Assembly: GCA_033980235.1 (NCBI GenBank)
Contig: CM067067.1
Location: forward strand, 16,858,739-16,922,738
Direction: 5' to 3'
Length of the DNA stretch: 64,000 bases
DNA from: Diadema setosum
Lineage: Eukaryota; Echinodermata; Echinoidea; Diadematoida; Diadematidae
In this document: positions 23,601 to 47,568 of the stretch, piece by piece
Layout: each line of letters begins with the position of its first letter
Numbering within the stretch: the stretch's first letter is position 1
The notes under the pieces: model-generated
The model's database searches: none
Told to the model about the DNA's origin: nothing
What the model saw: only the letters and a program-made list of their open reading frames with translations
Position numbers and translations under genes: made by a program

Positions 23601-26600
23601 ACAGGTCCATTGCTGAAAGGACTTGCGTTTGATTTCGTACGCAAAAATGAAATGCAACTTCGCATTGAATCGAGTTGTATCTTATTCGCGGTAGTTAATA
23701 AAACCGCCGAAATGGTAGCAAAACAGGCGTAGACATAACCAGTGTGCTGATATTTTGCGTATGATACGAAACAGGACAAATTTTCTGGGGCTTATAAATA
23801 GTGATCTATAATTTACCAGAAATTACTAGCACTGACCACAAATTAATTTTGACTTCGAATAATAGAAAGTATGACGCAAACGCCATTCGACCTTGATCGT
23901 TGTCTCATGAAGACAGCACTGCATGTACGTATGTATATATAGCAGTGTTCATAGATGTACGCGTAATGCTGTATGGACAGCACTTGCAATGGCAAGATGA
24001 TCCCAAGTTGTGTATAGTCGCAAGTCGAGTTTTATAGGAATGGGGCCCTGTAAAGGTTGTTAACAGGATCAATCCCATTATGTAAGACAGTAGTAGCTAT
24101 TATTCGAAAGGCAGTTGAAAGTGAATTGATTCGATAAATCAAAATAATGATGAGATCTATCTCTAGGAGATCGGGATCTAAGCTAAATTTCCCAATGATT
24201 CCCCTTATTGGCTTTTGTCCTGGCGAAGGTCACTATACGATATTTGCAACCGATCACGCTACCTCTGTATCCGTGCCCTCCTAAAAGTTATCATGACGAA
24301 TCAATACAAAATCCTTTGCCCTCTGGAAGCCGCTTTTCTTGCATTTCTGGAAGAAGGAAATGCTAAAGAATGGGAAGTATGTCGAAAGGAACAAATGGCT
24401 GGAAACCGGAAGGCCTGGAATAATATATCCATCAAGAAAGTATACTGACCAATAACTCGCAAAAACCTACTTTGCAAACTATGGTTTTCGGTTGCTTGTT
24501 TCCATTTTACTACCATGGATCTCGCTTTTCATCTTTTAAGTAAATACAATACCTGAAAGATATTTATCTCTTTTTAAACCTGAATCATCAATTTCAGCAA
24601 AGTTTTAATAAAGACAATTTTGGTTTTACTCCTTCCCAATATCGGATTTCGTTCTTACTTTCAGAGTAATCAAATTCATTTCCGTCTTTCACAACAAGTA
24701 CAGCAATGGGAACGTTAGGTCTCAGGATCAGCTAACTATCGAGTTATGTGTAATTATACATTTCGTTTTGTTTTCCTTATTAAAATGTTTCGATCATTAT
24801 ACCGTTGCTATATCGAAAGTTCACTTACTGTTAAGATGCAAGCCCATCATTTCTATCAAGAAGGTGGATTGAGACTCTATCTCCTGCGCTTGATGTTATC
24901 GTTAGTTACTTTTTCCCTTTGCATCACTTATCAGTATCTTTAGTTTAAAAATCACATAAGCCTATAACCCGATACTGATCGTTCGTGGTTGGTGGTGATC
25001 GAAAATGTCCATGTTATGCGTGATTTAGAGTATAAGTCAAAGCAGGGAGGTGACTCTCACCTCCCTGGTCAAAGCATTGACGTCAGTTATATCAGCATGG
25101 GCATAGAAGTATTAGCACTTGTGCAGAGTGAGGAAATTTCCATTATTCCTGTCTCTGAAAGCACAAACTAGTACAATGTAGTAGGCGATAACTTTACTCT
25201 CAGATTAACTGCAATGAAAGTCTTTCCTGAACCGGTTTCAAGTACTAAGGACAACCTGACCCGTCACTAAATTTTGTGATGTGTGTATAACATGAGCTCA
25301 GCTAGAGGAGCGTAGGTACTGAATAAAAGGGGGGTAATGAGGTAAATGGAGGAAGGACAATTCAAAGATAAAGAGCCAAATGCAATGAATAATGCCTTGA
25401 TGCATTTCCACCTTTCAATCATGGAGCTCCACGTTTCAAGTCTAATATTACTTTTTATAGCCCACAAGGATAAGAATCTAAAGAAAATTTATGGTCCCCC
25501 AGTAAAAGGATACTATTGAGATCTTAATGTAAGGAATGTCGAAATGCCTATCCACAGCCGATTTTCGTCAACCGATGAAATTAGAACAAAAGGCTCCCTA
25601 TGGGACGAGAATGATAACTTCATAGCAAACCTACGCTGCAATGTCCTCCTTCTGAAAAAGTTTTTTTTTTCACACACTAGCCTCTGAAAGGATGAAGAGA
25701 TTCCCACGGTTATGAAATGCGCTGTATAAGAATTAGCCATTTTCTTTACTAGTATTTTGACTGGAAAGAGAATTGAAGACCGCTGCGCGCATATGCTCCG
25801 TCTCTTGCTGTAGCTCGTGCAGTCATCACCCTCAACACTCAAAGAACCTTGAGTTTCAAAAAAGTTGTTTCCAACGAAATTTTTGCGCGCACACCTGCTC
25901 CGTTCTGTTTTCAGGTAGGAGATAGTTTAGACGACGGCAGACATGCTGCGATATTCATGTCATCTCATGACATTGTCTCACATACGCTAACCTTCAGACT
26001 CCATTACGAGCTCACTTTTTATGATATCATCACTGATATGCACACGTGACTTGATTAGAAGCGCAGCGTTCGTCGCAGTCTTTTCTTCAAATATATCAAC
26101 ATCGCAGCGCGCCAACAATCGAGAGAGAAATGTAGATCAATTGCTGAAAGCATTATATATCGCCCTCGGGTATTTCAAATTGCTTTATTCGGTGTCATGG
26201 ATAATATACCTTCTTTCCGTCTATGTTTGCAGCGTCGGTCGTGTTTCTTGACGTTTAGAAAAAAAAAGTTGATGCTCATAGATCGAACATACAAAACGAA
26301 CAAATCACATGAGAATACAGTACGTTGGCATGTATCATATTCGTAGATCAAATACAAACATAATAGTGATTGTTTTGAATCGTTATACGTTTAGTTCTGT
26401 TTTACGGGAATGAAACTTTAGCTTCTACATAAGGAGCTTTTTTTTCATTACGTGCAAACTTCTATTGAGTAAAAGAACAGATTCAGGATATCCAACACGC
26501 TCTATTTTTACTTTAATCATAAGTCTATTATTAATTATAAGAATATGCCATTGCAACGTCTAAAAGATTTTTTTTTGTGTGTGTGTGTGTGGGGTTGATT

Positions 26601-29600
26601 TCATAAAGGCACAACATTTCCCTATGGTGCGTTTCATGAGAGAATATCCTACGAAACACCACATGTAGGCCTATAGTGTGGAAAACTTTGAATTACGAAT
26701 ACATCATATAAGAGTTCGCCCTGTAAATGACATCATCTGAAAGCGAGGTTTAGATAGCGACATAAGATTAAGAACCACTGAAACTATGACAGTACTTATT
26801 GTAAAGAGCATTATTACCTTTTTATGTTTTCTTCACCATTTATGAAAACACGGAAGGAAAAATTCCCAGAATTAGTGGTTTAAGAACCACTAAAACTATG
26901 ACAGTGCTTTGTAAAGAGCATTATTGCCTTTTTAGTCTACTTTGCCATTTATGAAAATTCTGAAGGAAGATTCCCTGAATACAAGGGCGTGTTTCTGTTT
27001 GCTTTGGATAAGGTACATTTTCCGTCGGATTTTAGTTTGTACCCATCGACCCGCAAAGAACCTATCCCACAAATTCCGTTTTGCTAATCACTTGGACTGT
27101 CCAGTTTTGACAGACTGTTTTCACATTGCTGGTTGTGGTATATAAAACCATGGACCCTATACCTGTAGGGTCCATGATAAAACTGACGCTCCCAATTTCC
27201 TGCGGTTATAGAGAGTATGCTCTTGTTCCAACGAAGATATCCTGTATTGCACTCCTTTATCCTTCCTGAAGAAATCCGTTCTACCAGGGAGGTTACCATT
27301 TCCCTGGTTCTACCTGTGACGCACGACATATCTGGGCCAGCAATTCCCCATGTTGCCAATTACTTGAGTCTGATTACGGGTACAAATAGGGTGGGAGGGG
27401 GAGGGGCAAGACGACACTAGGAAGAAATTACACAGTTAAATATTTACTTAACATTTTACCCAGGAAATTACCGAGTCATTTTCTCGGTATTTCGCTATAT
27501 TGTTGTGTACTGGGATCGGTTTAGTTTACGGAGGTACGTTCAATGAAGTATCGTGGCACGCGCCGTACATGTATTTCCAAGTGTCATTTATTCGAGAGGG
27601 GTCTTATGTCATGCCCTCTCTCTTCGAGCTTAAAGGGGAAATCCAGTCAAAATCTAAGTTAGTCTGATAAGAAGGAGTAAAATATTACGAGAGTTCAACG
27701 GTAAAATTTTGATCGAAATCGGGTGAAAAATAAGGAAGTTATGACATTTCGAAGTTTTGCTAATATTTCTGGAAACAGTTCTTGAACGGTCGATATGAAT
27801 ATGCAAATGGCAAAGTGAGCATGTCATCCCCTCACAACTTGCCATATGGTTTGCACATAAAATTTTGAAATTTCCAGTTTTTAATTCAAATGCAATTATG
27901 CCCGAGGATCAAATCCTGGTATATCTAACTGATCACTATTCTGAAGTTATTCAACCAGGAACAGGAAGAAGACGAAAAGAAAACAACACTCTTTCAAATA
28001 AACTGTGGGAAAGGCGTTGGGAAAGAGATTAAAACAAAAACATCGACAGATATCCCATCATACCAATACCCTCCCCCTCCCTCGCACACACACACACACA
28101 CACACACACACGTTCGCACTTTGCTTAAAGGGATGCCTTCAGGTTTCCAACTTTTTTGATGATGAACTGTTTTTTTCTTTAAGATAATGAGGAATCTCTT
28201 ATGAAATATGAAAAAGCATATAATTCTGAGAGGAATTCAAAGTTTATTTGATGACAATTGGTTTTGGAATGACTGAGATATCCAAACCAAAGCGATTTTA
28301 TTAGGATCGCTTTAATTGGTTATGCTTTGCTTTTGCACGTCTCAGCCATTTCAAACCCGATTTTCATTAAAAACAAACTTTGAATTCCCTTCATAATTGT
28401 ATGCTCTTTAACATTCGATAAAGTGGTGCCTAGGTATCTCGTAGTGCTGAATCCTCATCTCAGCCAATACTGTACCATCCCTTGGGATGCCCCCCCCCCC
28501 CCCCCCTCTTCTATTTGTTTCTCCCTTGACTCTTCTGGATTCTGTCCCTGACCAATCTCCTTGCCCTGACTAAGGGATTTGTGCATCAGGCAAAAGTGGT
28601 AAAACAATCGAAGATTTCCATCTTCATCTTCTCAGGACCACTGTCAAACCCCTCCCCCACCCCCCCCCCCCCCAAAAGAAAAACAAACAAACAAACAAAC
28701 AAAAACAAAGATATCTTCCCCCTGTTGTACATTCCAGTAATGTTTTTAGCCAGGATAGGGTTAATAATTGTTAAATTGTGATGGTCCCAATGGGATCAAT
28801 GCACGACCGCTGACCGAATTACCATTTAAGAGTTGATGTCAAGGTTTAGGAGACCTTGACACGTGCACGTTGTACGAGTTGTAATGACACTCCCACGTTC
28901 AAGTTTAACTAAGGAAACAATATTACCTCCTCGAGAGTGATTTTTTCTTCCTTTGAAGATTGTCGAAAGTTTCTCCCAGCTTCTATTTTCAATTCTTCTT
29001 GACCGACAATAAACGTGAATTGTGCCAAAGTAACTGACGGCTTCACCAGCCAACTTATCAAATATATTTTATCATATTCAAATCCATTAATTTAATACAA
29101 GTATTCATTAAGAAGCTGGTATACTCGAAAAGAATGAGAGCTGTCAGACCTATTCCACTACACCATGGCTTAATTTAAGAATGGAAGCATGCACTTTGAT
29201 ATAGTTATGGGAAGAAGGAATAGTCTATGAAAAAGTAAGAACGATAGGTTTGCGAAGAGGTATTTCGTCCAAAAAAAAAAGCGTTTGATCACTTCTTACA
29301 GAATACAAACAAAATCAAATTTCTTTCAATGAGTTCTTTCTTCAGCAATGGATTGTTTATTTGGACCCATTAATCACAGAGTGGCCCTACTAAGGTCTTG
29401 CCTTCTAGGACTTCTATTTTTCTTGGATATCTCAGCCATTCGTTCTAAACCAATTTTAGTCAAATAAACTTTGAATTTCTCTTAGCATTGTATGCTCTTC
29501 TATATTTCAGAAGAGGTTCCTCATTACTCACACACAAAAAAAGGTTGTACACCTGAAGCCTCATCCCAACCAAAACTATAGATCCCTACGAGATGGGCCT

Positions 29601-47521: not shown

Positions 47522-47528
47522 TTCTTTT

Positions 47529-47568
47529 GAAAAATCATGGACCTATACTTGTAGGTCCATGGAAAAAT
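47529..47568. mobile_element. Ultra-short palindromic insertion (26 bp) with 7-bp direct repeats, CATGG family
   Basis: The palindrome at 47536-47561 has arms CATGGACCTA and TAGGTCCATG around TACTTG. It is flanked by GAAAAAT at 47529-47535 and 47562-47568. Confidence 0.75.

Follow-up and report, generated by a model that had tools for sequence, protein, structure and literature searches.

In Drosophila, P transposase makes its cut on one strand 17 nt within the inverted end, so that the chromosome keeps 17-nt 3' tails (PMC7776569), and the resulting junctions consist of the target-site duplication, at most 17 nt of one end, filler, the other end and the duplication again (PMC2895639). Within the same superfamily, 1360 makes 7-bp duplications at GTTNAAC, and the Drosophila P group prefers A at position -3 outside the duplication (ANAGT) (PMC3276498). 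Here we analyze short palindromes in a 64,000-nt stretch of the genome of the sea urchin Diadema setosum (hereafter the window; C9:16858739-16922738 of an 885.7-Mb genome). Each lies between two copies of a 7-bp direct repeat, and most fall into two families, named CATGGACC and CAGGGAGGT after their arms. We consider these palindromes to be excision scars of P-superfamily DNA transposons, with a probability of roughly 0.92, and refer to them as scars below.

A sequence-only reading of the window had listed six such loci, and all six were recovered, with perfect 7-bp direct repeats around CA...TG palindromes of 11-28 bp. Scanning the window for CA...TG inserts of 8-40 bp that have arms of 4 bp or more and are enclosed by a perfect 7-bp repeat returned these six and one further locus of the same layout, seven in total. 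First-order Markov simulations of the window (n = 200) contained a mean of 0.07 such loci and a maximum of 1, which bears out the claim that the arrangement is not fortuitous; a chance origin was rejected on this basis. No strand is assigned to any of the seven. The first scar (25036..25074), a member of the CAGGGAGGT family, has GTCAAAG at 25036-25042 and 25068-25074 flanking CAGGGAGGTGACTCTCACCTCCCTG (25043-25067). The second (27142..27183), of the CATGGACC family, has ATAAAAC flanking CATGGACCCTATACCTGTAGGGTCCATG (27149-27176), and the third (27278..27313) has GTTCTAC flanking CAGGGAGGTTACCATTTCCCTG (27285-27306), with asymmetric arms. The fourth (36749..36778), which was missing from the earlier list, reads CTCCAAC-CATGGGCCTACACATG-CTCCAAC, with its insert at 36756-36771; it is one base off the element end, and if this difference arose by mutation, its arms would measure about 12 and 4 nt. 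In the fifth (44880..44917), GCGCAAC flanks CAGGGAGGTGAGAAAACCTCCCTG (44887-44910), and in the sixth and shortest (47497..47521), CTGGAAC flanks CATGGTCCATG (47504-47514). Beside the sixth lies a one-armed CAGGGAGGT match on the minus strand (47491..47499), whose end is overlapped by the target site of that scar and which is possibly an older scar, partly lost. The seventh (47529..47568) has GAAAAAT flanking CATGGACCTATACTTGTAGGTCCATG (47536-47561) and consists of two 13-nt arms with zero filler, given an inferred TA variant of the end on the left. An Rfam search of the window gave no match at gathering scores, and a scan of the window for a full-length element, based on 7- or 8-bp repeats around inverted ends, gave nine weak candidates, none ending in CATGGACC or CAGGGAGG.

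The feature extends across the genome. The pattern CAGGGAGGT-N7-ACCTCCCTG, limited to one loop length, occurs at 264 places (backward-read control, 0), and CATGGACC-N{0-16}-GGTCCATG at 717 (control, 4). Forty copies, 20 per family, were fetched by position alone and blind to their flanks; their exact arms probably make them younger copies. A perfect 7-bp repeat flanks 33 of them, a repeat with one mismatch five, and neither two (CATGGACC: 15, 4 and 1; CAGGGAGGT: 18, 1 and 1), and the repeat extends to 8 bp in none of the 40. This sample follows the lines of the flank-scored arm search that the sequence-only reading had proposed, and it came out in favor of target-site duplication. Four further loci from the CAGGGAGGT-N7-ACCTCCCTG search, judged by eye, comprise three with perfect repeats and one with a single mismatch. 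A scan of 200 kb from arbitrary places for inserts of 8-60 bp found five perfect-repeat cases: two plainly of the CAGGGAGGT type (L014 at 7637 and L017 at 5618), one with other CATG ends (L014 at 760), and two that may be chance (L018 at 8835 and L023 at 969). Read backwards, the window and the 200 kb together (264 kb) contained none. Set against this sample, the window is richer than average, while the feature remains genome-wide. Separately, C3:479597-480107 holds a local cluster of seven exact copies of one CAGGGAGGT palindrome, several spaced 47 bp apart, which seems to be a tandem repeat grown from a scar-bearing unit.

The interpretation of the 7-mers as target-site duplications proved right, since the perfect repeats are joined by one paralogous empty site, a comparison of repeat copies within one genome. 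In L004, a CAGGGAGGT scar sits in a dispersed repeat as GCTCAAC, 25 bp, GCTCAAC, and the related repeat copy in L013 has GCTCAAC only once; aligning the two leaves a gap of 32 bp, equal to 25 + 7. The L013 copy bears its own older-looking, mutated scar about 15 bp away, a 21-bp degenerate palindrome between two copies of CTGATAC, and the corresponding place seems empty in L004. Across 40 sites (33 fetched and seven from the window, both families pooled), the duplications conform weakly to one palindromic motif, approximately G T n n A A C, with G at position 1 in 19, T at position 2 in 33, A at position 6 in 34 and C at position 7 in 26. Both the 7-bp length and the palindromic motif resemble those of 1360 (GTTNAAC) and Galileo (GTANTAC) as reported in PMC3276498 and PMC4168063.

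The elements from which the CATGGACC scars would derive are still present. From the longest CATGGACC arms we deduced the end CATGGACCTACAACGAA, a 17-mer found at 89 genome places (49 on the plus and 40 on the minus strand; control, 0). CATGGACCTACAACGAATGGACTTT forms both termini of two elements, whose inverted ends are of the CA...TG type and identical over 25 nt: one of 15,452 bp at C12:32946700-32962151, flanked by the 7-bp duplication CTCTCCT, and one of 23,256 bp at C18:28923362-28946617, flanked by TCTGAAC. Of a third copy, at C12:1767432, the left end alone was recovered. The arms of the CATGGACC scars are identical to the ends of the two complete elements, so the earlier proposal that the palindromes are stumps of longer elements that lost their interior looks right. 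Searching the genome with the Pfam GTP-binding domain of P transposase yielded 25 matches, three of which sit 4.95 kb inside such ends. Interior sequence was read over 7.5 kb of the C12 element. There, separate open reading frames (ORFs) encode first RNaseH_N (E 3.7e-23), then the GTP-binding domain split into two pieces (E 0.0017, below the cut-off, and E 1.7e-8) and last RNaseH_C (E 8.1e-6), and the first of these ORFs matches Drosophila P transposase 6p5a (E 2.1e-14). The sequence-only reading had suggested looking for a full-length element with the same ends and a transposase; for the CATGGACC family, this 15.5-kb copy has the ends together with P-transposase domains. Because P-transposase domains lie within an element bearing CATGGACC ends, the CATGGACC family is, judged from sequence, a member of the P superfamily. 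It combines P-type transposase domains, a 7-bp duplication, CA...TG inverted ends and, in the scars with a perfect duplication and the main end sequence, arms that need no more than 17 nt of the end, and the likeness of its duplication length and motif to 1360 supports the same placing. Galileo differs in its long inverted repeats (PMC3276498, PMC4168063), the elements described here being 15-23 kb long with identical 25-nt ends. Zebrafish Pdre2/THAP9 likewise represents the P superfamily outside flies and has ends starting with CA, but Pdre2 makes an 8-bp duplication and its end is CATACCTGTCAAC (PMC10983969).

In five further P-transposase loci (L065-L069, 7 kb each, including a 910-codon frame on C11), neither CATGGACC nor CAGGGAGG occurs exactly and the transposase is not bracketed by convincing inverted ends; these loci may be domesticated or decayed. 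One of them holds a P-transposase-like open frame on the minus strand (L065:2204-4864) of 886 codons from the first ATG, with no visible inverted ends; it is possibly a domesticated gene. In the left subterminal region of the CATGGACC element (L070, L072 and L073), CAGGGAGGTGATTACC, the start of the other scar family, occurs about 46 nt inside the end and could represent a common transposase site, a nested old insertion or coincidence.

Under the excision reading, the transposase would cut each inverted end 17 bases in, leaving two stubs in the chromosome that would be rejoined by error-prone end joining between both copies of the 7-bp duplication. We infer that the transposase makes the cuts and that the joining is alternative end joining of the polymerase theta type. 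The 17-nt cut in Drosophila predicts an upper limit of 17 nt for the arms of the scars. We examined 60 loci, which include 62 of the 89 occurrences of the 17-mer; having been chosen for keeping at least 17 nt, they test the upper limit only. Five are intact ends that match to 25 nt, and the other 55 have a perfect duplication within 25 nt in 25 cases, one with a single mismatch in seven and none in 23. In none of the 25 perfect or seven one-mismatch scars does the left arm run past 17 nt beyond what the right arm could supply, and all 25 can be read as stopping at 17; the next one or two bases fit either side, and are thus ambiguous, in six of the perfect and two of the one-mismatch scars. Of the 25 perfect scars, 11 have no filler, 12 have 1-4 nt of it, and the remaining two have 12 and 15 nt. 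Two scars (L075 and L076) retain a 17-nt arm on either side, separated by ATAT or CG, and wherever a full 17-nt arm is present, the opposite arm ranges from 17 nt down to nothing. Among the first 50 of the 717 listed CATGGACC palindromes, the longer arm measures 10-14 nt in 42, 15-16 nt in four, 17 nt in three and 19 nt in one TA variant.

These junctions resemble those from excision of Drosophila P{wa}, in which the duplications are intact on both sides, at most 17 nt remain per end and filler is little or templated (PMC2895639). That assay differs in its 8-bp duplications and its use of engineered flies, many without Rad51 (PMC2895639), in contrast to the 7-bp duplications, natural setting and hundreds of scars here. 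Zebrafish THAP9 in fly cells produced larger flanking deletions upon excision (PMC10983969), unlike the scars described here.

Several observations weigh against this reading. Of the 55 non-intact ends carrying the 17-mer, 23 lack any duplication within 25 nt. Their match to the end extends over 17 nt in 15 cases, 18 nt in four and 19 nt in four, and they may include intact ends of other subfamilies (L106 and L113 have a common interior) as well as decayed scars or one-sided deletions. Among the 25 perfect cases, L091 lies inside a simple repeat, and some of the seven one-mismatch cases lack a right arm and could have arisen by chance. The 19-nt sequence CATGGACCTATACAACGAA occurs in two scars (C1:35389140 and L082); for this variant, the 17-nt limit does not hold exactly unless the TA was inserted. 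Twenty of the 50 listed CATGGACC junctions keep 1-5 nt that the assumed ends do not explain, two of the three assumed ends were themselves derived from the palindromes, and the fourth window scar fits only if one base has changed. In the 200-kb sample, seven CAGGGAGGT-type palindromes were identified by eye, some with imperfect arms; two have a perfect repeat, one has a single mismatch and four have neither, so that the repeat is often missing from older copies and many copies are decayed. At position -3, T predominates (31 of 40 sites), in contrast to the A of the Drosophila P group (PMC3276498). Pfam reported no THAP domain in the eight ORFs scanned of 29 listed in the element, whose N-terminal exons may lie outside them. 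Finally, no CAGGGAGGT parent was found, exact CAGGGAGG and CATGGACC being missing from the five 7-kb P-transposase loci, and seven of the 20 fetched CAGGGAGGT scars share a single centre, GAGACTC or its complement, which is more than free joining suggests; this could reflect preferred annealing of GAG...CTC or, less likely, mobility of the palindrome.

The CAGGGAGGT family would share the P-excision origin of the CATGGACC family, to judge from its identical duplication length, its similar layout and a 17-nt sequence, CAGGGAGGTGGAAAGAG, which L006 and L014 have in common before they diverge. The alternative that best withstands the data, and is still improbable, is that the CAGGGAGGT palindromes come from a different superfamily, such as hAT, leaving the CATGGACC palindromes alone as P scars. 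CAGGG ends are reminiscent of hAT elements, and the five P-transposase loci supplied no CAGGGAGGT-ended parent. The 18 of 20 CAGGGAGGT scars with perfect 7-bp duplications, none with 8 bp, argue against such a separate origin, as does the pooling of both families in a single motif of the 1360 kind. A non-autonomous-looking element of 757 bp with CAAGGAGGTTCGAGA ends (L013:5746-6516), flanked by the 7-bp duplication GCTGCAC, also speaks against it. The sequence-only reading had noted both the hAT-like ends and their conflict with the 8-bp duplications of hAT; the conflict stands, and the CATGGACC family belongs with P rather than hAT. The hAT superfamily was rejected on duplication length. At L010:3813-4271 and L069:4427-4887 lie further elements, each about 450 bp long, that have CAGGGCTCGACACTAAC-type ends and the 7-bp duplications CTATAAG and AGTAAGT, respectively.

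It is very unlikely that the palindromes are ultra-short mobile elements in their own right, transposed in trans by a P transposase that recognizes the ends alone. The recurring CAGGGAGGT centre would suit such mobility, as would the long open frames, of up to 910 codons, in which P-transposase matches lie in this genome. Against it, the first 50 listed CATGGACC copies have 41 distinct centres, indicating separate joins rather than copies of one master, and the opposite arm varies down to nothing where the full 17-nt arm is present; P elements, moreover, require internal sequences. The suggestion in the sequence-only reading that the ends are mobilized in trans is accordingly unsupported. Its other example, abortive gap repair, in which sister-chromatid copying stops early on both sides and the interior is lost, has the least to recommend it, for although incomplete synthesis followed by end joining is common at Drosophila P gaps (PMC2895639), it should leave many arms longer than 17 nt, and end joining of an excision break with a 17-nt arm limit fits the 25 perfect-duplication scars better, the palindrome counts covering N7 and N{0-16} loops.

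If the palindromes are P excision scars, we lean slightly towards a P family whose usual fate is excision without restoration, its scars, in the hundreds to thousands, outlasting a handful of 15-23 kb elements. Scars seem greatly to outnumber surviving elements, in a ratio that is indicative only, two two-ended elements and one further end having been recovered. Such scars would constitute a repeat class made purely of repair junctions and a fossil record, outside flies, of germline end joining and the 17-nt P cut. Each would mark one excision, showing where an element formerly lay and how the break was rejoined; jointly, they would allow a test of how general the 17-nt staggered cut is within the P superfamily and would show which end-joining pathway operates in this germ line. 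They would also reveal past transposon loads that repeat annotation probably misses, since each scar spans only a few tens of bases. To our knowledge, P-element excision junctions have been known only from laboratory flies, cells and plasmids, and in the open-licence PMC literature, judged from titles and the starts of abstracts, we recognized no report of natural genome-wide P scars. What appears to be new is the scale and setting, with hundreds of natural scars and the 17-nt limit read in a natural genome.

Two other regions with ORFs or exons were observed in the window, both on the minus strand. At 6772-11693, several ORFs are alike in sequence and include one Kazal domain; a protein search with the ORF at 6772-7416 returned two relatives. 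At 53978-63488, a SET domain (53978-54418) and a PHD-like finger (59488-59913) are encoded by exons that presumably belong to a KMT2-like gene.

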